A stretch of 33,798 bases of DNA, from NCBI GenBank assembly GCA_028706745.1, contig JAQTVM010000017.1, forward strand, positions 1-33,798, given 5' to 3'. The notes below the pieces were generated by a model. The model saw only the letters and a list, made by a program, of their open reading frames with translations. It was not told the origin of the DNA and did not search any database. The stretch is from Candidatus Nanoarchaeia archaeon. Its GTDB lineage: Archaea > Nanobdellota > Nanobdellia > SCGC-AAA011-G17 > GW2011-AR17. Below are positions 7,076 through 24,738 of the stretch, piece by piece. Numbering within the stretch: position 1 is the first letter of the stretch; every line of letters begins with the position of its first letter. The position numbers were made by a program, and so were the translations under genes.

Positions 7076-8185
7076 TCATGAACATTTCAGAAGATTCAAG
7101 CACCTGTTTATTTCCTTATCTGACATTTCATTTGCAAACTTCTTGGCAATAGGAGCAAATAGCCCGCTCTTTAAGCTAAAGCAGTTTGCATTTTTTGTAT
7201 ACGCATTCCATCCTTCAAGAGAATTGTATACTTCATCGTAGCTTATTTCTCTTTTATCATAAAAAGAGCACAGCATTTCAAGCTTATTCCTGAATTTTCT
7301 TATGTTCTTCTTTTGTATAAGATTATGATGTGGGAACACTTTTAATCCAAGGAAATTAACTCCCCTGTAAAGCGGGAACACGCTTGACTTGTCGGGATGC
7401 AGGCTGATGCTCAAGACGTTTTCAAGGAAAATGCTTAGTTCTTTCTTATAATACTCAAGAATCTCCTTGGATTTATGCAGTATCACAAAGTCATCAACAT
7501 ACCTTATGTAATATTTTACTTTCAGATTTTGTTTTATAAAATAATCCAACTCATTAAGGTAAACATTCGCGAAAAACTGGCTCGTCAGGTTGCCGAGAGG
7601 CATGCCTTTTCCTCGCTGTTGAGGGCAATGGTTCTGCAATATAATTTTAATAAGCCACAGCACTTTTTCATCGGTTATTTTCCGGCTTATAATCTTCATT
7701 AATATTTCATGGCTGACAGAGTCAAAAAACTTCTTAATGTCTGCTTTTAAAACAAAACCCTTTATTCCATCTCCTGTCTTTAATGGCGTCAGATTCCTTG
7801 AAACCTTTCTCTTGAAATATTCAAAGCGACTTATTGCCTTCAAAACCCCTTTTCCCTTCCTGTTTGCGTAGCTGTCATAAATAAATGAATTCTCGAATAT
7901 AGGCTCAATTATGCTGCAGAGTGCATGGTGCACAACCCTGTCCCTGAATGCTGATTTGCTGATTTTCCTTGTTTTCGGCTCCCTTATGATAAATGCTTTT
8001 AGCGGCTCCGGGCGATAGCTGTAAAAGAGGAGGTCCGCCCTTAATTGGAGCAAATTGTTTGTTAAATCATTTTCAAACTCAACAACATACTTCTTTCTTG
8101 TTTTATGCTTTCTTGCTTTTTGATACGCCGAGAACAGGTTTTCATAGGAGCACAAATGAAAATACAAATTATTGTATGTTTTCAT
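7076..8185 (-). CDS. Diversity-generating retroelement reverse transcriptase
   Basis: This is the DGR reverse transcriptase, which copies the template RNA into adenine-mutagenised cDNA. The start MKTYNNLYFHLCSYENLFSAY is typical of DGR RTs, so I prefer the internal ATG at 8185 over the longer frame to 8224. Visible motifs are RDRVVHHALC (about residue 81), the first catalytic Asp in LKADIKKFFDSV (D149), GMPLGNLTSQFFANVYLNELD (about 194-214) and RYVDDFVIL (about 228-236). LGNLTSQ in place of the QGxxxSP of other RTs marks the DGR clade. The end has the NSLEGWNAYTKN thumb-like motif. At 369 aa it is of normal length and intact. It is the last gene of the minus-strand DGR cluster, 48 bp after the TR. 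Confidence 0.95.
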   Translation of the reverse strand: MKTYNNLYFHLCSYENLFSAYQKARKHKTRKKYVVEFENDLTNNLLQLRADLLFYSYRPEPLKAFIIREPKTRKISKSAFRDRVVHHALCSIIEPIFENSFIYDSYANRKGKGVLKAISRFEYFKRKVSRNLTPLKTGDGIKGFVLKADIKKFFDSVSHEILMKIISRKITDEKVLWLIKIILQNHCPQQRGKGMPLGNLTSQFFANVYLNELDYFIKQNLKVKYYIRYVDDFVILHKSKEILEYYKKELSIFLENVLSISLHPDKSSVFPLYRGVNFLGLKVFPHHNLIQKKNIRKFRNKLEMLCSFYDKREISYDEVYNSLEGWNAYTKNANCFSLKSGLFAPIAKKFANEMSDKEINRCLNLLKCS

Positions 8186-8233
8186 AACAAGCAGAATAAA
8201 TAGGAATAATAAAAATCCTCGCAATAAAAGGGC

Positions 8234-8321
8234 TATTCCACGAGCAGCGTTATTGTTGTTAAGGTTGTTATTGGCATTAAGGTTGAAGTTATTGTTGTTG
8301 CAACCGAGCCACGCAGCTCTT
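8234..8321 (-). repeat. DGR template repeat (TR), 88 bp
   Basis: This 88-bp block aligns without gaps to the ends of four target genes (VR1-VR4). In the coding frame it reads RAAWLGC, then NNNNFNLNANNNLNNNN, then AARG. The variable block is 8249-8299, with 13 AAC/AAT codons and fixed F, L, A and L codons between them. The flanking AAGAGCTGCG...GGTTGC is invariant in all copies. The end reads CGTGGAATA in the TR but CGTGGGGTA in all four VRs, as expected of IMH* versus IMH. It lies between the VR1 gene and the RT, so it should be present on any transcript that reaches the RT. Confidence 0.96.
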
Positions 8322-8383
8322 TAGCCCCCTTGCCGTTTCGAGCACCGCTGCTTCAGGTTTCGCTTTGCTACTTGCTGTTGCAG

Positions 8384-8400
8384 TTGAATTTTATAGCCAA
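8384..8400 (-). promoter_or_regulatory. Possible internal promoter for TR and RT
   Basis: On the minus strand, TTTATTGGCTATAAAATTC contains a good TATAAAA about 65 bp before the TR. A start 25 bp further would make a short leader, the TR and then the RT mRNA. The interval 8322-8517 between the VR1 gene and the TR holds no convincing gene. Confidence 0.3.
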
Positions 8401-8517
8401 TAAATGCCATGGCAAAGGGACGTGTAGCCCTTGCTTTGCAGCGAGGACAAAGAGAAAATAGTTATTGTGCTTATATGCTTATTGCTTAACCTTTATTTCC
8501 TTTGGAGATTTTTTGCG

Positions 8518-9438
8518 TTACGACGAACGTACCCCACGAGCAGCGTAATTGCTGAAAAGGTAGTTAAAGGCACCAAGGTCGAAGTAATCGTAGTCGCAAC
8601 CGAGCCACGCAGCTCTTGTCTCATTGCTGCTTGAAGTCCAAACATAAGCGGGCTTTCCAAAAAATTCCCCAATCTCAACAAGCACTTCGGGATTTCTCAA
8701 GCCTGTAAACTGCCTTACAAACCTTGCCATTTCAGGAATCCTCAATGCATCTCTCAATTTACAGTCTTTCAGCTTTTTCCTATCAAAAGAAAAAGCCTTT
8801 CTTTTGCCTGCATTCACATTGCTGTTTCCGCCGTTTGAAGTGAAATCAGAATCAGTTGGATAATGTATTACCTGTGCCGAACCCCAATTCACTAAAGTGT
8901 TCTGCGCATGCCAGCCGTATCCTTTACCCTTGTTTTTGTAATCATTTAATACCTTCATGCACTCAGGATTATTCTTATTATTCCACAACGCTTCAAGAAT
9001 ATTGCAGCTTAACGCAAACGAAGGCAATTCTATCCCCCTCTGCTCAAAATACACAATCCAATTGTAAGGAGTATTGTTTATCTGGCTGTTGTCACCATTC
9101 TTCTCAATATTCTTAGGCACATATATCCTGCCATGCCTTTCAAACTCATTGCCGTCTGCGTCAACGCAGCAGATGTTTTCAAGCGTTATGTATTCAGAAG
9201 CATCTGCAGCCGCAATAAGCGGCTTCCTCTCCCTATATTCTCTCATCTTCCCGAGCGCTTCCTGCAGTCTCGGACCATACGCGCGGTGCCTTGCAAGCAT
9301 CTGCATTGGAATAGTCCCTGCAGTGAGCATTGATTCAAGCGCAGAAATATTCTGAGGCTTGTCACTATCCAAAGCCTTCTCTGCTTCTTCCAGCGCTGCA
9401 ACGCAGCGCTTGTATTCTGTGATGAGTTCAGATGTCAT
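8518..9438 (-). CDS. DGR target protein 1 (carries VR1), 306 aa
   Basis: This is a diversified target protein. Residues 1-75 form a helical, coiled-coil-like stalk (ITEYKRCVAALEEAEKAL ... LQEALGKMREYRERKP). A middle domain shared with the other targets has VDADGNEFERHG, NWIVYFEQRG, FALSCNILEALW and GYGWHAQNTL. The C-terminal domain leads through NPEVLVEIGEFFGKPAYVW to the variable segment DYDYFDLGAFNYLFSNY after RAAWLGC, and ends AARGVRSS. This is the C-type-lectin-fold layout of DGR targets, though the fold is inferred. No signal peptide or membrane helix is present. The ATG overlaps the stop of the HEPN gene (ATGA), so it is translated with that pair. VR1 matches the TR at every non-adenine position of the block. 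Confidence 0.93.
   Translation of the reverse strand: MTSELITEYKRCVAALEEAEKALDSDKPQNISALESMLTAGTIPMQMLARHRAYGPRLQEALGKMREYRERKPLIAAADASEYITLENICCVDADGNEFERHGRIYVPKNIEKNGDNSQINNTPYNWIVYFEQRGIELPSFALSCNILEALWNNKNNPECMKVLNDYKNKGKGYGWHAQNTLVNWGSAQVIHYPTDSDFTSNGGNSNVNAGKRKAFSFDRKKLKDCKLRDALRIPEMARFVRQFTGLRNPEVLVEIGEFFGKPAYVWTSSSNETRAAWLGCDYDYFDLGAFNYLFSNYAARGVRSS
8530..8617 (-). repeat. Variable repeat VR1
   Basis: The 88-bp copy of the TR at the end of target gene 1. Fourteen of the 26 adenines in the Asn codons are changed (8 to T, 6 to G, none to C). There are no changes at other bases within the variable block, which is the cleanest match of the four. No GC-rich hairpin follows it. Confidence 0.95.
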
Positions 9439-9860
9439 TTTTCCAGCAGCCCCTTTAATAGCTCAATAATATGCTTAAATTCCAGCTTATTCATCTCAAT
9501 ATATGACTTATCCACAAATATTCCGTCATATGAAACCCTGTTCCTTACATCCTTCAATTTGAAGATTGTTTCAGCCTCATATTCATATTCAGGAAATCTG
9601 ACTTTGAAAAAGCGGATTAAGCATTCATGGTTGTCTGATTTCAACCCGTCTTTAAGCAAAAGAGCCGTAAGCAGCTCTTTAATAATTTCATAGTAATCCT
9701 CTGCTATAACTGAAGCGGTTTCCGCATCAAGAGCTATCTGCTCAACAACCTTCAATCTTACATTGCACATCTTCACGATGGAGCTTATCTTCTGTGTGTC
9801 AGGCTCAACTTTCTTTATATGCTCCTTCAAGCATTCATTCCACGGCATCAGCGGCTTCAT
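9435..9860 (-). CDS. HEPN-domain protein (HepT-like), 141 aa
   Basis: An all-helical protein of HEPN size. The conserved C-terminal motif reads KDVRNRVSYDGIFVD; in HepT toxins this place holds the RNase motif Rx4-6H followed by Tyr. Here Arg-Asn-Arg and Tyr remain but the His is absent, so RNase activity is uncertain. The gene starts inside the end of the upstream nucleotidyltransferase gene (4-bp overlap, 9860-9857), the standard arrangement of MntA-HepT-type pairs. It in turn overlaps the start of DGR target 1 by 4 bp (9438-9435). Being a roughly 140-aa helical bundle inside a DGR, it could be mistaken for Avd, but its sequence and partner are HEPN/MNT. Confidence 0.8.
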   Translation of the reverse strand: MKPLMPWNECLKEHIKKVEPDTQKISSIVKMCNVRLKVVEQIALDAETASVIAEDYYEIIKELLTALLLKDGLKSDNHECLIRFFKVRFPEYEYEAETIFKLKDVRNRVSYDGIFVDKSYIEMNKLEFKHIIELLKGLLEK

Positions 9861-10459
9861 TTTATCTTTAAGTACCCCTTTAGCTTTATCCCGTTTATTA
9901 TGTTATTTAGCAGTTCAGGCGATAATTTGCTTAAGTCTGGCTCAAAAAAGAGGTTAATGGGGTGCTTTAATTGCTTTTCAAACCTGCTTAAGCCCAATAC
10001 CTTTTCATTTGCCTGCACAAAAATGTCTATATCGCTGCTTAAATCATATTCCGCCTTTGCGAAAGAGCCAAAGAGCACTATGCATCTAGGGTTCAATTCC
10101 TGCTCCAAAAAGTCCAGAATGCCCGAATCAAGGATTGCCTTTAAAGCGCCGTGGCGCTTGTAAAGCTTATATTCTTCGCTTGAAGAATTTGCTATAAAAC
10201 TCGGGAAAACGCCCTGCTCTTTTTTGGCAATAAGCCCCGTTTTACACATCTTGCTGACATAGAAAGCCGCAGTGGATTTCGGAATCTTAAGCAATCTCGC
10301 TATTTCCCTTATATGATACTCCTTTTCCGGATTCTCCATGAAGAGAGATTCTATCTTATGTCCCATTTTGTTGTCCAATAGTCCAATATTTATGGACATA
10401 TTTAAATCTTGCGGTTTTGTTTTCCGCTTCCCTGATTTTCCGCCCGTTATTTTAGACAT
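9857..10459 (-). CDS. wHTH-nucleotidyltransferase (MntA-like), about 200 aa
   Basis: After a basic N-terminus comes a winged HTH (IESLFMENPEKEYHIREIARLLKIPKSTAAFYVSKMCKTGLI). A minimal nucleotidyltransferase domain follows, with CIVLFGSFAKAEYDLSSDIDIFVQ containing the GS and D-x-D catalytic motifs. In MntA/HepT pairs this enzyme adds AMP to the HEPN toxin and silences it; the wHTH probably binds DNA and may autoregulate. I chose the ATG at 10459 (MSKITGG); the longer open frame upstream lies inside the VR2 gene in another frame. The ATG overlaps the stop of target gene 2 by 8 bp (ATGTCTAA), so it is coupled to the DGR targets. Confidence 0.85.
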   Translation of the reverse strand: MSKITGGKSGKRKTKPQDLNMSINIGLLDNKMGHKIESLFMENPEKEYHIREIARLLKIPKSTAAFYVSKMCKTGLIAKKEQGVFPSFIANSSSEEYKLYKRHGALKAILDSGILDFLEQELNPRCIVLFGSFAKAEYDLSSDIDIFVQANEKVLGLSRFEKQLKHPINLFFEPDLSKLSPELLNNIINGIKLKGYLKIK

Positions 10460-11312
10460 TTTGTTTACCTTTATATTTTTTTCCGACTGCTCGCAGCCCC
10501 GGCTGCTCGCTACGTACCCCACGAGCCGCGTTACTGTAGCTAAGGTCGTAATAGGCATTGAGGTAGAAGTAATAGTAGCTGCAACCGAGCCACGCAGCTC
10601 TTGTGTCATTGCAATTTGAAGCATCTCCGTTCGGAACCCAAAGATGCGCTTCTTTGCCAAAATACTTGCCAAGCTCTACAATCAATTCAGGATTTGCCAT
10701 GCCTGTAAGCTGCTTTGCAAACCTTAATGCAACACTATCGTTCAATGCCTGCTCAAGAGGCATGCTTTTCAAGCCCTGCTTTGAAAATCCTAATGCAACC
10801 CTCCTGCCAGTATTGATATTACTATTTCCCCCATCACTCGGGAAATCAGAATCATAAGGATTATGCATTACCTCTTGCCCAGCATAACTAATCAGCGTAT
10901 TGGGCTTATGCCCGCCATTGCCATTCCCCTTGTCCTTGTACTGCATTAAAACTTTGTTCAATTCAGGCTCTTGCCTTTGCGCATATAAGGCAGCCGCTAT
11001 ATTGCAGTGAAGGGCAAAGCTCGGGTTGCGCATTGCTTTCTGCTCAAGATGCGCTGCGGCATCATAAGCAGTAAAATACAATATTTTCCCATCGGCATCC
11101 TTTTCTATATCCCGCCTTACATACAGATTAGGGTATTGCTCAAACACATTCCCGTCTGCATCTACACAGGCAATATTCTCCAAACAGATATAATCTGCCG
11201 TAATATCACCAATGCCTGAAACAGAAGTTATCACGGGCTTAATCGGCTCGGGCTCGTCAGTGATGCCCATCGCCTTCCGCATCCATTCAACTTCTTCAGG
11301 TGTGTATGCCAT
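10452..11312 (-). CDS. DGR target protein 2 (carries VR2), 286 aa
   Basis: A paralogue of the other targets with a shorter, different N-terminus (MAYTPEEVEWMRKAMGITDEPEP) in place of the 75-residue coiled-coil stalk. Shared segments are VDADGNVFEQYPNLYV, FALHCNIAAALY, GNGNGGHKPNTLISYAGQ, NPELIVELGKYFGKEAHLW and RAAWLGC. The variable segment is SYYYFYLNAYYDLSYSN, followed by AARGVR. Unlike targets 1, 3 and 4 it does not stop after the VR. A short deletion removes the usual stop and the frame runs through the downstream hairpin, adding a basic tail (SEQPGLRAVGKKYKGKQNV). No signal peptide is present. AGGAAA lies upstream of the ATG. Confidence 0.92.
   Translation of the reverse strand: MAYTPEEVEWMRKAMGITDEPEPIKPVITSVSGIGDITADYICLENIACVDADGNVFEQYPNLYVRRDIEKDADGKILYFTAYDAAAHLEQKAMRNPSFALHCNIAAALYAQRQEPELNKVLMQYKDKGNGNGGHKPNTLISYAGQEVMHNPYDSDFPSDGGNSNINTGRRVALGFSKQGLKSMPLEQALNDSVALRFAKQLTGMANPELIVELGKYFGKEAHLWVPNGDASNCNDTRAAWLGCSYYYFYLNAYYDLSYSNAARGVRSEQPGLRAVGKKYKGKQNV
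10493..10506 (-). repeat. Hairpin after VR2
   Basis: GCAGCC-CC-GGCTGC lies 8 bp beyond the VR2 end in coding sense. It is inside the open frame of target 2. It matches the hairpins after VR3 and VR4 and is placed like the DNA hairpin needed for homing in the Bordetella phage DGR. Confidence 0.6.
10515..10602 (-). repeat. Variable repeat VR2
   Basis: The 88-bp TR copy in target gene 2. Eleven of 26 Asn-codon adenines are changed (7 to T, 4 to G). Two synonymous non-adenine differences from the TR are seen: Leu CTT to CTC in the block, and Ala GCT to GCG just after it. Confidence 0.95.
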
Positions 11313-11358
11313 TTTTGTGTTTTCCTTTTGTTTTTTGTTTTATTATTTTTTCCTTTTA

Positions 11359-11396
11359 GCGCGCTCCGCGCGCCCTGGCTCGCAGCCTGCGGCTGC
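11359..11396 (-). repeat. Two tandem hairpins after VR3
   Basis: GCAGCC-TGC-GGCTGC (11382-11396) lies 18 bp beyond the VR3 end, past the stop codon. It is followed by a second hairpin, GCGCG-CTC/C-CGCGC (11359-11371). The first is identical to the hairpin after VR4. Confidence 0.6.
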
Positions 11397-11399
11397 TCG

Positions 11400-12320
11400 C
11401 TACGACGACGAACGTACCCCACGAGCCGCGCTACTGCTGCTAAGGTAGCTAATGGCAAAGAGGACCAAGTTATCGTTGCTGCAACCGAGCCACGCAGCTC
11501 TTGTATCATTACTGCCTGATGTCCATACATAAGCGGGCTTGCCAAAATGTTTTCCAATCTCAACAAGCACATCGGGATTTCTCAATCCCGTAAGCTGTTT
11601 TACAAATCTCTCCATGCCCGGATTTTTAAGCGCATCTTCAAGCGTGCAATCCTTAAAGCCCTGCCTGCTAAACTGCAATGGCATTCTTCCGCCATTGTTG
11701 ATATTATTATTCCCGCCGTTTGAAGTGAAATCAGCATCAGACGGATAATGTATTACCTGAGCGCTGCCCCAGTTTACCAAAGTGTTCTGGGCATGCCAGC
11801 CATAACCGTTACCCTTGTCCTTGTAATTCATCAATACCTGCATACATTCAGGATTATCCTTGTTCTTCCACAGCGCTTCAAGAATATTGCACGAAAGCGC
11901 AAAGCTTGGCAAAGACATTCCCCTCTGCTCAAAATATACAATCCAATTGTAAGGAGTATTGTTAATCGGGCTACCATCGCCATTCTTATCAATGCTTTTC
12001 GGCACATATACCTGCCCATGCCTTTCAAACTCATTGCCGTCAGCGTCTGTGCAGCAGATGTTTTCAAGCAAAAGGCAGTCAGAAACACCTGCAGCCGCAA
12101 CCAGCGGCTTCCTCTCCTTATATTCCTTTATCTTCCCGACAACTTCCTGCAGTCTGGGTCCATATGCATGGTGCCTCTGGAGCATTCTCATTGCAGAAGT
12201 CCCTGACGAGAGCATTGATTCAAGCACAGAAAGATTCTGAGGCTTATCACTATTCAAATCTTTCTCAGCTTCTTCCAGCGCTGCAACGCAGCGCTTGTAT
12301 TCTGTTATGATTTCAGTCAT
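11400..12320 (-). CDS. DGR target protein 3 (carries VR3), 306 aa
   Basis: Very close to target 1 along its whole length, with the same stalk (ITEYKRCVAALEEAEKDL), TDADGNEFERHGQVYV, NWIVYFEQRG, FALSCNILEALW, GYGWHAQNTLVNWGSAQV and NPDVLVEIGKHFGKPAYVW. The variable segment is SNDNLVLFAISYLSSSS after RAAWLGC, then AARGVRSSS and stop. The two genes are therefore a recent duplication or kept similar by conversion, apart from the diversified end. No signal peptide or membrane helix is present. An AAGGAAAA-type ribosome binding site precedes the ATG. Confidence 0.93.
   Translation of the reverse strand: MTEIITEYKRCVAALEEAEKDLNSDKPQNLSVLESMLSSGTSAMRMLQRHHAYGPRLQEVVGKIKEYKERKPLVAAAGVSDCLLLENICCTDADGNEFERHGQVYVPKSIDKNGDGSPINNTPYNWIVYFEQRGMSLPSFALSCNILEALWKNKDNPECMQVLMNYKDKGNGYGWHAQNTLVNWGSAQVIHYPSDADFTSNGGNNNINNGGRMPLQFSRQGFKDCTLEDALKNPGMERFVKQLTGLRNPDVLVEIGKHFGKPAYVWTSGSNDTRAAWLGCSNDNLVLFAISYLSSSSAARGVRSSS
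11415..11502 (-). repeat. Variable repeat VR3
   Basis: The 88-bp TR copy in target gene 3. Thirteen of 26 Asn-codon adenines are changed (8 to G, 5 to T). Three non-adenine differences are present: Phe TTC to Leu TTG, Leu CTT to CTC, and Ala GCT to GCG. The last two are shared with VR2. Confidence 0.95.
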
Positions 12321-12358
12321 TTTTGTTTTTTCCTTGTTTTAGTTTTTTCCGACTGCTC

Positions 12359-12373
12359 GCAGCCTGCGGCTGC
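12359..12373 (-). repeat. Hairpin after VR4
   Basis: GCAGCCTGCGGCTGC folds into a 6-bp stem with a 3-base loop, 18 bp beyond the VR4 end and just after the stop codon of target 4. Confidence 0.6.
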
Positions 12374-12379
12374 TCGCTA

Positions 12380-13327
12380 CTACGACGAACGTACCCCACG
12401 AGCTGCGCTACTGAAGTTAAGGATGTTATAGGCACTAAGGTCGAAGTTATAGTCGTTGCAACCGAGCCACGCAGCTCTTGTATTTTTGCATTTTGCAATA
12501 TTGTCAGGGAACCAAACCCTTGCTTCTTTCCCAAAGTATTTTCCAATTTCAACAAGCACTTCGGGATTTCTCAAACCTGTAAACTGCCTGATAAAATATA
12601 ATGCTACCGCATGCTGCAATGCCTGCTCGAGAGTCTCATCTTTTAATGCCGATTTATTAGTAAAAGGCAAAACAATCCGCTTTCTGCCGCTATTAATGCC
12701 TGCAACGCCCCCATCATTGGGAAAATCGCTGTCAAACAGATAATGGATTATTTTCTCTCCTGCATAATCAACAACAGTGTTCTGGCAGTGCCAGCCGTTG
12801 CCATTGCCTTTATTCTTGTACATAAGCAAAATCCTTTCGCATTCAGGATTGTCTTTGTTCTGCCACAACGCATTAAGTATGTTACAGCTTAATGCAAATG
12901 AAGGCAGAAATAATCCGCCTGCCTGCTTTTCAAAATGAGCAGCACCATTGTAAGGCGTAAAGAACACTAATTCACCGTTTTGATTTTTCTCGAGATTTTT
13001 ATTCACGAACAATTCATCATACCTTTCAAACACATTTCCATCAACATCAGTGCAGCATACATCCTTCAATAAGAGATAATCGGATTTATCAGCAATTGAA
13101 ACCCCTGCAGGCTTCCTCTCCTTGTATTCCTTCATCTTCCCAACGACTTCCTGCAATCTGGGTCCATACGAATGGTGCCTCTGGAGCATTCTCATTGCAG
13201 GAGTCCCTGCCGAAAGCATTGATTCAAGAGCAGAAAGATTCTTCGGGCTATCAGTATTCAAAGCATTCTCAACTTCTTCCAGCGCGGCTACGCAGCGCTT
13301 GTATTCCGAGATGATTTCAGATGGCAT
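12380..13327 (-). CDS. DGR target protein 4 (carries VR4), 315 aa
   Basis: Shares the coiled-coil stalk of targets 1 and 3 (ISEYKRCVAALEEVENAL ... LQEVVGKMKEYKERKP). The middle and C-terminal domain are closer to target 2 in places (FFTPYNGAAHFEKQAG, GNGNGWHCQNTVVDYAGE, GGVAGINSGRKR, LEQALQHAVALYFIRQFTG, FGKEARVWFPDNIAKC). The variable segment is NDYNFDLSAYNILNFSS after RAAWLGC, ending AARGVRSS. It therefore looks like a mosaic of the two target subtypes. No signal peptide is present. Its ATG directly follows the stop of the coiled-coil gene 13328-14380, so the two are one operon. Confidence 0.92.
   Translation of the reverse strand: MPSEIISEYKRCVAALEEVENALNTDSPKNLSALESMLSAGTPAMRMLQRHHSYGPRLQEVVGKMKEYKERKPAGVSIADKSDYLLLKDVCCTDVDGNVFERYDELFVNKNLEKNQNGELVFFTPYNGAAHFEKQAGGLFLPSFALSCNILNALWQNKDNPECERILLMYKNKGNGNGWHCQNTVVDYAGEKIIHYLFDSDFPNDGGVAGINSGRKRIVLPFTNKSALKDETLEQALQHAVALYFIRQFTGLRNPEVLVEIGKYFGKEARVWFPDNIAKCKNTRAAWLGCNDYNFDLSAYNILNFSSAARGVRSS
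12392..12479 (-). repeat. Variable repeat VR4
   Basis: The 88-bp TR copy in target gene 4. Ten of 26 Asn-codon adenines are changed (5 to T, 5 to G). The only non-adenine difference is the third base of the Ala codon after the block (GCT to GCA). Confidence 0.95.
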
Positions 13328-14380
13328 TTATCTCTCCAATTTTTCTGTAAATTCAGCTTCAATTATAACAGGCTCTTCAACATAAGGCTTTGGAGATTCA
13401 GCTACTTTCCCAAGTACCATATCCATTCTTGCCTTCAAGTCCATTTTGGATTTTGAATCAGCAGCAAAAATCTCGGCATCAAGAGAGTCTTCAGCAGCCC
13501 TTTGTTCGCTTTCAACATCAAGATGAATCTGCGCTTCCTCGCGAAGCTGCCTTAATTCCTCAATCCTTGCCTTTCCCCTGGAAATAATCCCCTCAGGCAC
13601 TTCAGAGCTTCCTATGATATCAGCGTGCGTTTTTGCCTCTTCATATTCGCACTTCATCTCGTGCAATACATCCATTGCAGGCAGGAACTTTGCCTTTACC
13701 TTATCCTGGTCATACTGCTCTATTGCCTTCATCTGCCTTCTGGCTGAAAGCAATTCCCTTTCTGCAAAAGGATAGTCAATTTGAATCTTCCCTATTTTCT
13801 TCTCATTCTCATCAGATATTCCTGAAAAAAGCATCTGCCTTGTATCAGCATCATCAAAATCAATGTCAGCGCCTTCTGACAGCGCAGAACGAACTTCCTC
13901 CTGAGCCTTAGCATCAAGCTTATCATATTGCAAAAGCCTGCCAAGCACAGAGCCCTTCTGCTCAACAGAAGAAATATCCTGCCTGTATCCGCTAATCCGC
14001 GCAACCAGCGCCTGCTCCTTTTGTGAAAGCTCAGCATACTTTGCCCTAAGCCCTTCAACTGTTTCCGGAACGCCTGCAAACTCCTGCACGCTTCTAACAA
14101 TTTCCTCGTGGCTTTTCACAATGCTTTCAAGAAGCTCTGTCCTCAATGACGGCTTTGGCTTTGCCTTTCCAAAGAAAACTGCCAGCACTCCGTGCCTTTT
14201 CCTGCAGTCTGCCTTGTCTGTCTTCCTGCTTAAAGCCAATTGCCCTGAATAAGTCTTAAAATCCTCGGGCGGTATGGAAACCTTTTCAAGATACTGCCTT
14301 GCAACTGAAGAATCAGTAATCCTCGCTAGAGAGCCTTCTCCTGCTTTTATTATTGCTGTTGTGTATGCTGTTTCACTCAT
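13328..14380 (-). CDS. Coiled-coil protein heading the DGR operon, 350 aa
   Basis: I recognise no family. The product is almost wholly helical and highly charged, with long coiled-coil stretches around residues 85-145 (ELLESIVKSHEEIVRSVQEF, LRAKYAELSQKEQALVARI) and 200-310 (ERELLSARRQMKAIEQYDQ, IEELRQLREEAQIHLDVESEQR). There is no signal peptide or membrane helix. The stop abuts the ATG of DGR target 4. A minus-strand TATA box at 14431-14440 and GGGGGT before the ATG make this the first gene of the DGR transcript. Since three targets carry N-terminal coiled coils, it may be a scaffold or partner for them; that is inference from context only. Confidence 0.75.
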   Translation of the reverse strand: MSETAYTTAIIKAGEGSLARITDSSVARQYLEKVSIPPEDFKTYSGQLALSRKTDKADCRKRHGVLAVFFGKAKPKPSLRTELLESIVKSHEEIVRSVQEFAGVPETVEGLRAKYAELSQKEQALVARISGYRQDISSVEQKGSVLGRLLQYDKLDAKAQEEVRSALSEGADIDFDDADTRQMLFSGISDENEKKIGKIQIDYPFAERELLSARRQMKAIEQYDQDKVKAKFLPAMDVLHEMKCEYEEAKTHADIIGSSEVPEGIISRGKARIEELRQLREEAQIHLDVESEQRAAEDSLDAEIFAADSKSKMDLKARMDMVLGKVAESPKPYVEEPVIIEAEFTEKLER

Positions 14381-14430
14381 TTTATACCCCCTAACTATTG
14401 ACTAATTGTTACATTTTAGTAGTGGCAGGA

Positions 14431-14440
14431 ATATATAAAT
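14431..14440 (-). promoter_or_regulatory. Promoter of the DGR operon
   Basis: Minus-strand ATTTATATAT is a good archaeal TATA box 50 bp before the ATG of the coiled-coil gene, leaving a leader of roughly 25 nt that contains the GGGGGT ribosome binding site. No other strong promoter is seen before the targets, so they are probably co-transcribed from here. Confidence 0.6.
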
Positions 14441-14508: not shown

Positions 14509-15807
14509 ATGGAAACAGGCAAATTAATGCGCTACTTTGCGGACAAGAAGGAAATAATACGCGGGCTGAAAGTCCTTCCAAGGGAAGCTGATATAAGGCT
14601 GACAAAGGATTTCATATCCTGTATTATAGGCCCGAGGCGCTCAGGAAAAAGCTACTGTATGTACGATTTAGTGCTGAATAAGCTTAAGCTGAAAGACGAG
14701 GATTTTCTTTATATTAATTTTGAAGATGCGGAAATGTCAGGCGCCTCGTTCAGCGAAATATTAATAGCTGTAAACAGCCATGAGGAAAAATACGGGAAAA
14801 AGCCGTTATACTTGTTTTTGGACGAAGTGCAGGTTGTTGAAGGCTGGCACAAGGCGCTGAACAGCCTGTACGAAAGCAAGAGGCATTTCATTGTTGTGTC
14901 AGGATCTTCATCAAAACTTCTGTCAAAGGAAATAGCAACCTCGCTGAGGGGAAGGGCATTAAGCTATACCCTGCTTCCTTTGTCATTCAGGGAATATATG
15001 AAATTTGGCGGAGTTTCATTGGATATTAAAACCAGCTCTGAAGAAAACATGGCAAAAAATATTTTGAGAGAATACCTTAAGCACGGAGGCTTCCCGGCAG
15101 TCGCGCTTAATAAGGAAATTGCAGAACAGTTTTTCAGGGAATACATGGATCTCGTGGTATTCAGGGATGTTATTGAAAGAAAGAAAATAAAAAATATATT
15201 TGTAATAAAAGCAATTGTCAGGCTTCTGATGTCATCTTTTTCAAAAGAATCATCCATCCACAGGATGTTTGACACATTGAAATCTCAGGGCATTAAGATA
15301 AGCAAAAAAACAGTTTATAACTATGCATCATACCTTGAAGATGCATTTTTTGCATTCTTCCTGAGAAAATTTGATTATTCAATAAAAAATGAGATTCTTT
15401 CAATGCCAAAATGTTATATATGCGATAACGGGCTTGTAACTTCTGCCGAGGGATCTGCTGAAAACTTCGGAAGGCTTGCCGAGAATGCTGTTTTTCTTGA
15501 GCTAAAAAGGAGGCAAAACAATACAGCCGAAGAAATAGCCTATTATAAGCTATCAGCAGGAAATGAGGTGGATTTCGCAATAAAAAAAGGAAAAACGGCA
15601 ATAAAGCTTATTCAGGTGACTGCTGTTTCAAACCTTGAAGATATAAACAAGAGGGAATTGAAAGCTCTCCTTGAAGCGTCAGGCAGCCTCAAATGCAGCA
15701 GCCTGCTTGTTATTACATGGGATTATGAAGACAAGAAGATGATTGAATCAAAAGAAATAAATTTTGTGCCTCTTTGGAAATGGCTTCTTGAAAGCCCCGG
15801 CTTCTGA
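14509..15807 (+). CDS. AAA ATPase with DUF4143 domain
   Basis: A 432-aa member of the large archaeal/bacterial ATP-binding DUF4143 group. Walker A is GPRRSGKS (41-48) and Walker B YLFLDE (101-106), followed by the sensor-like VVSGSSSKLL and the family phrase LRGRALSYTLLPLSFREYM. The C-terminal half holds the DUF4143 nuclease-like region with ENAVFLELKRR and NEVDFAIKKGKTAIKLIQVT, which has the E...E-V-D...Q pattern of PD-(D/E)xK folds. The role of this family is poorly known. The ATG is 21 bp after the TATA box, so the mRNA is leaderless. It is divergent from the DGR operon. Confidence 0.88.
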   Translation: METGKLMRYFADKKEIIRGLKVLPREADIRLTKDFISCIIGPRRSGKSYCMYDLVLNKLKLKDEDFLYINFEDAEMSGASFSEILIAVNSHEEKYGKKPLYLFLDEVQVVEGWHKALNSLYESKRHFIVVSGSSSKLLSKEIATSLRGRALSYTLLPLSFREYMKFGGVSLDIKTSSEENMAKNILREYLKHGGFPAVALNKEIAEQFFREYMDLVVFRDVIERKKIKNIFVIKAIVRLLMSSFSKESSIHRMFDTLKSQGIKISKKTVYNYASYLEDAFFAFFLRKFDYSIKNEILSMPKCYICDNGLVTSAEGSAENFGRLAENAVFLELKRRQNNTAEEIAYYKLSAGNEVDFAIKKGKTAIKLIQVTAVSNLEDINKRELKALLEASGSLKCSSLLVITWDYEDKKMIESKEINFVPLWKWLLESPGF

Positions 15808-23617: not shown

Positions 23618-24130
23618 TCATTTCAGCACAACGGCTTTCGTGTCATTCAGGCATTCCTTGCACAATGCTATGCTCTTTTCAATATCCTTTTTATTGCCGA
23701 CAGAAATACTTGTGCCATATGTATATTCTTCCCTATCTTCTATTATGCTCGTTTCATGCCTGCCTGTTTCATTAAACAAGCCAAGCGCAGCAATAAACTT
23801 CTCATCAAACTCTATTTTGCCTTCCTGCTTCAAATACTTGATAAGGGCAATTGTGCATTCCTGGTTTTTGGAGTCATAGCCAAATTTTGCAGCAATTGCA
23901 AGAAAGCAGTGATAAATGCAGTAAAAGGCTGCGCTCATGCTCCAGTCAGAAAAACCGCCATCGCTAAAATAAGATATTGCCAGCAGGTTATGCTCTGCTT
24001 TTTTTAAGTGCCTTTTTGCTTCTTCCATATCAGGCTCTGCTATTACAAGCCCCCTGTGCTTCCCTTTTTCCTTGATTTCCTTTTCAGCCTTTTTCAGGCA
24101 CCATTCCATCTTGTTCCCGGCGTGGCTCAC
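23618..24130 (-). CDS. HEPN-domain protein, 170 aa
   Basis: A helical HEPN protein: EEAKRHLKKAEHNLLAISYF, DWSMSAAFYCIYHCFLAIAAKFGY and NQECTIALIKYL follow the archaeal HEPN pattern. The C-terminal motif is EDREEYTYGTS in place of Rx4-6H, as in the HEPN subgroup thought not to have the classic RNase site. The start GTG at 24130 overlaps the stop of the nucleotidyltransferase gene (GTGA), but an ATG at 24109 (MEWCLKKAEKE) resembles the start of relatives better. It forms an MNT/HEPN pair with the gene at 24127. Confidence 0.8.
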   Translation of the reverse strand: MSHAGNKMEWCLKKAEKEIKEKGKHRGLVIAEPDMEEAKRHLKKAEHNLLAISYFSDGGFSDWSMSAAFYCIYHCFLAIAAKFGYDSKNQECTIALIKYLKQEGKIEFDEKFIAALGLFNETGRHETSIIEDREEYTYGTSISVGNKKDIEKSIALCKECLNDTKAVVLK

Positions 24131-24699
24131 CTTACCGCCTCCATGTAATTTTCATAGCCATAAAGCACAACGCCGGACTTTATAATGCTTGCCATAGCCT
24201 TGTTCCGCAATTTGGCATCTTTCTGAAAATCCTGCATACTCTGGAGCAGGAGATGTATCTTTTTGCTTGATACCTTGTTTCGCATTTCTATTATATCTTG
24301 TATTTGCTTAAAATTCCTGCTTTTCGCAACAACAAGCAAATCAATGTCGTTTGCCTCTTTTTCGTTAACGAGGATTGAGCCGAACAGGATGACAAACAGG
24401 GAAATGACCTTAATCTCCTTAAATTCCTCCAGCCACCTCTTATAATTCAATGACTCCATTGCAAGCGCCAGCTCTATCATCTTGCCTGCCGCAGGGTTGC
24501 CAAAATCAAAAGAATAAACAACAGCATTTCCTATCCTCCTGCCGTTCATAATTCCCAAACCGGACAGCTTTCTCATTATCTTGAATGCGCCCGCATGGCT
24601 GATGCCAATTGCTTTCCCTATGCTCCTGCTGTTATGCTGCGCTGAAATGTCCTTAAACAGCAGAAGCACGGCTTCCTGTTCTTTTGAAAGGTGTTTCAT
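24127..24699 (-). CDS. HTH-nucleotidyltransferase (MNT) protein
   Basis: An N-terminal HTH (LSKEQEAVLLLFKDISAQHNSRSIGKAIGISHAGAFKIMRKLSGLGI) joins a minimal nucleotidyltransferase with FVILFGSILVNEKEANDIDLLVVAKS (GS ... D-x-D). It is the likely partner and antitoxin-type modifier of the HEPN protein encoded next. The ATG at 24699 is chosen; a GTG two codons earlier (24705) is possible. The promoter region holds two direct repeats that the HTH may bind, which would make the pair self-regulated. It is the same gene pair type as the one embedded in the DGR, though not closely similar in sequence. Confidence 0.83.
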   Translation of the reverse strand: MKHLSKEQEAVLLLFKDISAQHNSRSIGKAIGISHAGAFKIMRKLSGLGIMNGRRIGNAVVYSFDFGNPAAGKMIELALAMESLNYKRWLEEFKEIKVISLFVILFGSILVNEKEANDIDLLVVAKSRNFKQIQDIIEMRNKVSSKKIHLLLQSMQDFQKDAKLRNKAMASIIKSGVVLYGYENYMEAVR

Positions 24700-24700
24700 A

Positions 24701-24738
24701 TTCACTTTTAGTTAATATATGTTTACTTTTAGTTAATA
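24701..24738 (-). promoter_or_regulatory. Direct-repeat operator before the MNT/HEPN pair
   Basis: TTCACTTTTAGTTAATA (24701-24717) and TTTACTTTTAGTTAATA (24722-24738) are near-identical 17-bp direct repeats with a 21-bp period, two helical turns. They lie between the minus-strand TATA-like TTATATACC (about 24742-24750) and the start codon, as expected of an autorepression site. Confidence 0.6.

Follow-up and report, generated by a model that had tools for sequence, protein, structure and literature searches.

The 33,798-nt stretch of DNA studied here (the window; contig JAQTVM010000017.1 of a Candidatus Nanoarchaeia archaeon) carries a diversity-generating retroelement (DGR), all parts of which lie on the minus strand. 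A reverse transcriptase (RT) of 369 aa occupies positions 7076-8185, its start being likely the ATG at 8185 (RT 8185-7076). Upstream of it are an 88-nt template repeat (TR, 8234-8321), a structured RNA of the Rfam family RT-16 (RF03019, 8316-8447) and four target genes, each with a variable repeat (VR): T4 (8518..9438, 306 aa) holds VR1 (8530-8617), T3 (10452..11312, 286 aa) holds VR2 (10515-10602), T2 (11400..12320, 306 aa) holds VR3 (11415-11502) and T1 (12380..13327, 315 aa) holds VR4 (12392-12479). As the genes are laid out, a partner gene, the four targets, which are probably C-type lectin-like (CLec-like), and the template/RT module could all be on one transcript running from 14380 to 7076. 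The element is a chromosomal DGR of a DPANN archaeon, with the Woesearchaeota as its nearest named relatives. We consider it quite likely that its template RNA is closed, with RT-16, the TR and a box 3' of the TR belonging to one molecule.

The TR contains 13 AAY codons and reads RAAWLGC-NNNN-F-N-L-N-A-NNN-L-NNNN-AARGI in the frame of the VRs. An earlier note on this DNA had located the TR and VR1 to VR4, aligned them without gaps over 88 nt and put each VR at the 3' end of its gene; these placements are correct, VR1 to VR4 ending T4, T3, T2 and T1, respectively. In comparison with the TR, VR1 presents 16 mismatches (16 at A), VR2 15 (13 at A), VR3 18 (15 at A) and VR4 13 (12 at A). In total, 56 of the 62 mismatches fall on the 32 template A's (P ~1e-18 under random placement), and six are at other bases. 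The fixed AA>GG difference at the boundary of the initiation of mutagenic homing (IMH) sites accounts for eight of the 56 and leaves 48 mutagenic A changes. The 3' end of the TR is the IMH* site TGGAATA, while all four VRs end in TGGGGTA and have the IMH and its flanks in common; directly after VR4 the IMH reads TGGGGTACG. TGGAAT/TGGGGT is also the IMH*/IMH pair reported for nanoarchaeal DGRs (PMC4372165). Matching between TR and VRs drops to chance level outside the 88 nt, both edges of the homology being sharp. When the 1.24-Mb genome was searched for the pattern of the TR 5' block, only five sites came up, the TR and the four VRs. The earlier note also had all VRs varying at the 13 Asn codons and keeping the F, L, A and L codons between them. 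Each of the 13 codons does vary in at least one VR, although a VR does not vary at all 13, and the F codon is lost in VR3 of T2 (TTC>TTG, a C>G change). T changes are seen within CTT and GCT codons.

None of the 48 changes at the window is A>C (0/48), which is within the range of the clade (P 0.10). When 51 TR-VR pairs from 37 DPANN loci were pooled and the IMH bases left out, the spectrum comprised 374 A>G, 226 A>T and 29 A>C changes (the last 4.6% of 629), with 22 changes at bases other than A. The A>C share is 17.6% in nine non-DPANN loci against 4.6% in DPANN (Fisher P 9e-7, with sites that are not independent). A>C is thus about four times rarer in DPANN DGR loci than in their non-DPANN relatives, and most templates are nonetheless AAY. 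For the enzyme of Bordetella phage BPP-1 in E. coli, the equivalent of A>C makes up 26% of misincorporations (PMC12875486). Protein-level selection could contribute to the scarcity of A>C. Since the window shows no A>C and the clade little of it, an AAY codon in effect gives access to 9 residues per site, or 9^13 = 2.5e12 combinations, and the earlier figure of 15 residues and about 2 x 10^15 (1.9e15) combinations is too high.

The RT contains LGNLTSQ and YVDDF and matches PF00078. Its best solved relative is 8ub7 (E-value 1e-45), with group II intron RTs well behind (4e-22), so the RT beside the TR is of the DGR type, as the earlier note had it. The entries 8ub7-8ube are presumably complexes of the BPP-1 RT. 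The retron VTG motif was not found in the RT sequence, the solved relative 8ub7 is not a retron RT, and the retron St85 model scored 57 bits where its cut-off is 235. This RT is carried by 49 of 145 related genomes, and its named relatives include Woesearchaeota, Pacearchaeota, Aenigmatarchaeota, Micrarchaeota and others. A viral origin was considered and rejected: the nearest IMG/VR relatives are 34-43% identical, while identity is 72% in the closest congeneric genome and 50-63% in many further archaeal ones.

DGRs in DPANN archaea, where they are common, and the use of one TR for several VRs are already known. The first of these was rightly stated in the earlier note, which also called four targets with a head gene and an embedded two-gene module in one apparent 7-kb operon unusual. 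This is only partly right: several VRs are found in approximately 28.6% of DGRs (PMC6642488), yet no more than four VRs per TR were seen in a scan of 37 related loci. The reading then proposed, a DGR whose single TR serves four targets in cis, is supported by the restriction of changes to A, the RT, the IMH pair and the C-terminal position of the VR in a domain that resembles, if weakly, a DGR variable protein and lectins in structure. The RT-16 RNA had been overlooked. The nanoarchaeal (DUSEL4) DGRs share TGGAAT/TGGGGT, an archaeal DGR RT and several DGRs per genome with the present case; the window differs in having four cis targets per TR, and neither RT-16 nor the closing helices are mentioned in the part of that report available to us (PMC4372165).

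Sequence searches with the targets yielded no Pfam, NCBIfam or PHROGs family and no useful PDB match. T2 is 74% identical to T4. T3 has no counterpart of the helical domain with which T1, T2 and T4 begin at their N-terminal end. T1 was modelled by AlphaFold with a mean predicted local distance difference test score (pLDDT) of 81; since the N-terminal helices dominated the whole-chain Foldseek search, the C-terminal domain was searched anew (pLDDT 85.5, predicted template modelling score 0.89). The top PDB match is then TaqVP, the DGR variable protein of Thermus aquaticus (query-normalised TM-score, TMq, 0.51; E > 1), with lectins lower. From this model, the C-terminal domain of T1 probably has a CLec-like fold.

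The RT-16 match (85.4 bits against a gathering score of 50; E 3e-12) would form the structured domain on the 5' side of the template RNA. At the window it abuts the TR (RT-16 8447-8316, TR 8321-8234). The family, which reportedly stems from Weinberg in 2017, is present in 45 of the 145 related genomes and in 106 of 371 genomes of a wider phylum sample. Sixty loci around RT or RT-16 matches were compared, TR-VR pairs being called by their mismatch pattern alone, with RT-16 unused. RT-16 lies at most 400 nt upstream, on the same strand, for 48 of the 54 DGR RTs with enough upstream sequence, and its 3' end is -8 to +9 nt from the TR 5' end in 35 of 36 loci. It still abuts the TR in five loci (L108, L110, L123, L147 and L149) where the RT is on the opposite strand or was not found nearby, which indicates that RT-16 is part of the template and not of the RT gene. 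RT-16 was not found in the scanned relatives of Halanaerobiales, planctomycete, Patescibacteria, Omnitrophota, alphaproteobacterial or Archaeoglobus origin. The Rfam entry gives small RNA only, and no assigned function was found in the literature and Rfam, a full-text search for RF03019 returning only the Rfam 15 paper. We likewise found no mention, in the searchable literature, of a closed DGR template RNA with RT-16 as its 5' half; the DGR link may have been made elsewhere. The window sequence is a member of a known family (85 bits), which we place in the DGR template, adding two helices that reach a box past the TR.

These helices came to light when the loci were read side by side, as complementarity of the 5' part of RT-16 to the box after IMH*. 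In the outer helix, strand A (8441-8448, GUCCUCGC) pairs with strand C2 (8215-8222, GCGAGGAU); in the inner one, strand B (8427-8432, AAGGGC) pairs with strand C1 (8228-8233, GCCCUU), whose first base is the base after the TR. Strand B adjoins a conserved CUACAC motif (8427-8422). The minimum free energy (MFE) fold of the window RNA holds both helices (8448-8441/8222-8215 and 8432-8427/8233-8228) as well as stem P2 (8419-8411/8334-8326). Both covary across loci. For A:C2, the mean energy is -12.1 kcal/mol for cognate strands versus -7.6 kcal/mol for non-cognate ones, a difference matched in 0 of 20,000 permutations, and the pairing remains strong, at about -11 to -19 kcal/mol, in the five loci named above. 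For B:C1, 55 loci were set in one register (B before CUACAC, C1 starting at the second base past GGAATA), and positions 1-9 are paired in 52, 52, 47, 49, 39, 43, 36, 35 and 33 of them. At position 4 the pair is exchanged, U-A in 26 loci versus A-U in 17. Slid registers, which keep the relatedness of the loci, give a clear drop, sharp beyond the conserved G/C-rich end. Given that the helix had been defined on the first set, it was tested on 23 separate named loci, which presented 119 of 161 possible pairs, against 89.1 +/- 4.7 in permuted sets (0/20,000). In 26 of the 35 loci compared for this, the offset between the TR 3' end and C1 is within -3 to +2 nt. Since the two long-range helices covary, RT-16, TR and box appear to form one closed template RNA. 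A hairpin C1:C2 noticed by eye, which would make a four-strand switch, was rejected as unsupported (z -0.5).

Several points weigh against this explanation of the locus. The permutations keep base composition and ignore the relatedness of the loci, and the window RNA has only a moderate folding advantage over shuffled sequences (z -2.4). In nine of the 35 loci, the VR homology of the TR ends 8-43 nt short of C1. A local hairpin, P1 (A:B), covaries too, and A may therefore switch partners; in many loci the two strands leave room for A:B as a side hairpin, whereas in others it would compete with A:C2. No structural match of the target reaches significance (C-terminal domain E > 1, whole chain E >= 0.5).

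Under the closed-template reading, RT-16 (5'), the TR and the short 3' box would form one RNA shut by A:C2 and B:C1. The TR would be the copied loop, given that the inner helix begins right after IMH* and RT-16 ends at the TR start. The RT would bind RT-16, and complementary DNA (cDNA) would start at IMH*, next to the B:C1 helix. The TR would then be copied with errors at A, giving G or T in DNA and rarely C, until synthesis halts at the P2 stem of RT-16, and the cDNA could replace any of the four VRs. The layout resembles a retron non-coding RNA (msr-msd), in which a 5' structured part is followed by the template and the ends are closed by a long-range stem; an a1/a2-like stem, as used to recognize retrons, is seen at the window in A:C2 and B:C1. 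It differs in that the RT is of the DGR type and the template feeds VRs, 2'-OH branch priming being a feature of retrons. By analogy, it is tentatively suggested that DPANN DGRs have retron-like wiring, with an end-to-end stem, cDNA from IMH* primed by an RNA nucleotide of CUACAC opposite the stem and a stop at RT-16, although we regard this as doubtful. If this were true, DGRs would come in two RNA architectures, with the scaffold 3' in one and 5' in the other, and would have a priming logic in common with retrons. A closed template would give a likely job to RT-16, an Rfam family for which no assigned function was found. A large archaeal DGR group would have its structured template domain on the side of the TR opposite to that in BPP-1, the best-studied system, and DGR priming models and BPP-1-based engineered DGRs would need to allow for a second layout.

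Among other explanations, the genes around the targets may be functional parts of a DGR defence operon. The first gene of the apparent operon, here called head (13328..14380, 350 aa), is coiled-coil-like and has no Pfam family. Between T3 and T4 are a gene for a winged-helix and MNT-type nucleotidyltransferase protein (9857..10462; Polbeta 1e-8, PADLOC PDC-M05A 5e-14; start codon uncertain) and a HEPN-like gene (9435..9860; a weak HEPN match, E 0.05, below cut-off), whose stop overlaps the T4 start. In favour of such an operon, head homologs stand before DGR targets at two further loci, and target relatives have vWA or AAA genes as neighbours, an arrangement known from clade-5 DGR conflict systems (PMC10907252). 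However, the vWA and AAA matches are mostly weak, and a second winged helix-turn-helix MNT gene (PDC-M05A, 1e-10) with a HEPN-like partner lies elsewhere in the window (23618-24705), so the MNT-HEPN module looks like a free-standing insertion. The cut-offs for HepT/MntA (type VII) toxin-antitoxin systems were not reached (MntA 28 versus 60 bits, HEPN 14 versus 22 bits). A functional role of the pair and head in defence seems rather unlikely.

The element may also be an ordinary multi-target DGR with a BPP-1-like 3' spacer as its template structure, RT-16 merely marking the cDNA end like the avd-side motif of BPP-1. The two systems share a DGR RT, a TR of AAY codons, A-restricted VR changes, IMH/IMH* and a target gene that ends in the VR, its fold being probably CLec-like at the window; BPP-1 has both a structured 3' spacer and a 5' stop motif (PMC12875486), and the RT-16 end coincides with the TR start. 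In BPP-1, however, the scaffold and primer sit in the spacer 3' of the TR (PMC12875486), whereas at the window the structured RNA lies on the 5' side of the TR and appears to close over it. A long structured 3' spacer of that type was not found at the window, where TR and RT ATG are 48 nt apart; the median is 32 nt in named DPANN loci and 172 nt in nine non-DPANN loci, and the DPANN spacer is too short for such a structure. RT-16 moreover greatly exceeds a stop signal in size, and covarying helices link it to the 3' box. The window further differs from BPP-1 in its four targets and the near absence of A>C, and no Avd gene was identified between its targets and RT. We consider a BPP-1-like template improbable.

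That the locus is a relic, with fixed VRs and retargeting ended, is very improbable: a few changes at bases other than A (6/62) would fit, but they are few, the RT is intact, and T2 and T4, despite 74% overall identity, agree at just 3 of the 13 template-Asn codons while the flanking TR bases are identical. Finally, RT-16 and the 3' box might be a cis-regulatory leader of the RT gene, acting on translation or transcription and unrelated to templating, as RT-16 usually lies 110-130 nt ahead of the RT start, which the C box immediately precedes, but the boundaries of RT-16 and C1 track TR/VR homology and not the RT start, and the five loci whose RT is on the opposite strand or was not found nearby keep RT-16 at the TR and a strong A:C2, so we give this idea hardly any credence.

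The same genome (G000) contains a second complete DGR on contig C24 (L003 8208-10503), with RT 8208-9296, TR ~9330-9437, VR 9844-9951 and a 245-aa target. RT-16 is in the same place there, at a sub-threshold score (33.6 bits, local E 0.003). On contig C13 (L015 3079-5284), a head paralog (39% identical, E 5e-67) directly precedes a 337-aa target, which is likely a remote (trans) target of the second DGR because its VR matches the C24 TR, with codon-sized gaps. In another genome (L222, G002 C30, 80-3044), a head homolog is followed by two tandem DGR-type targets; an RT was not seen in the open reading frame list of this 7.1-kb contig. Given that C13 and G002 repeat the arrangement, head and target are a recurring pair in the genus, the only one in which head homologs were found. 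As one template serves four targets, the partner gene is conserved and the genome holds a second DGR, likely with a remote target, the case is well suited for learning what DPANN cells diversify, and why.

A subclass of TRs (L115, L118, L122, L131, L132, L136 and L138) has VR homology ending ~31-43 nt before C1 and a CUCG...CGAG hairpin-like insert before IMH*. At L145 (G069 C51), RT-16 and a TR are followed by an apparently truncated RT start, which looks like a decayed DGR. Target relatives lie directly after vWA genes at L153 (1798-3881; VWA_4 4.7e-7) and, with a weaker match, L078 (33-2241), and directly after an AAA (MoxR-like) gene at L077 (3-2169; weak). These neighbours recall the MoxR/vWA conflict systems of bacteria and may serve as a lead only; such systems occur with other clade-5 DGRs, none having been seen for DPANN in that study (PMC10907252). 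Divergent from the DGR operon, an AAA_14/DUF4143 ATPase gene (PADLOC PDC-S01 3e-104) lies at 14509-15807 of the window.

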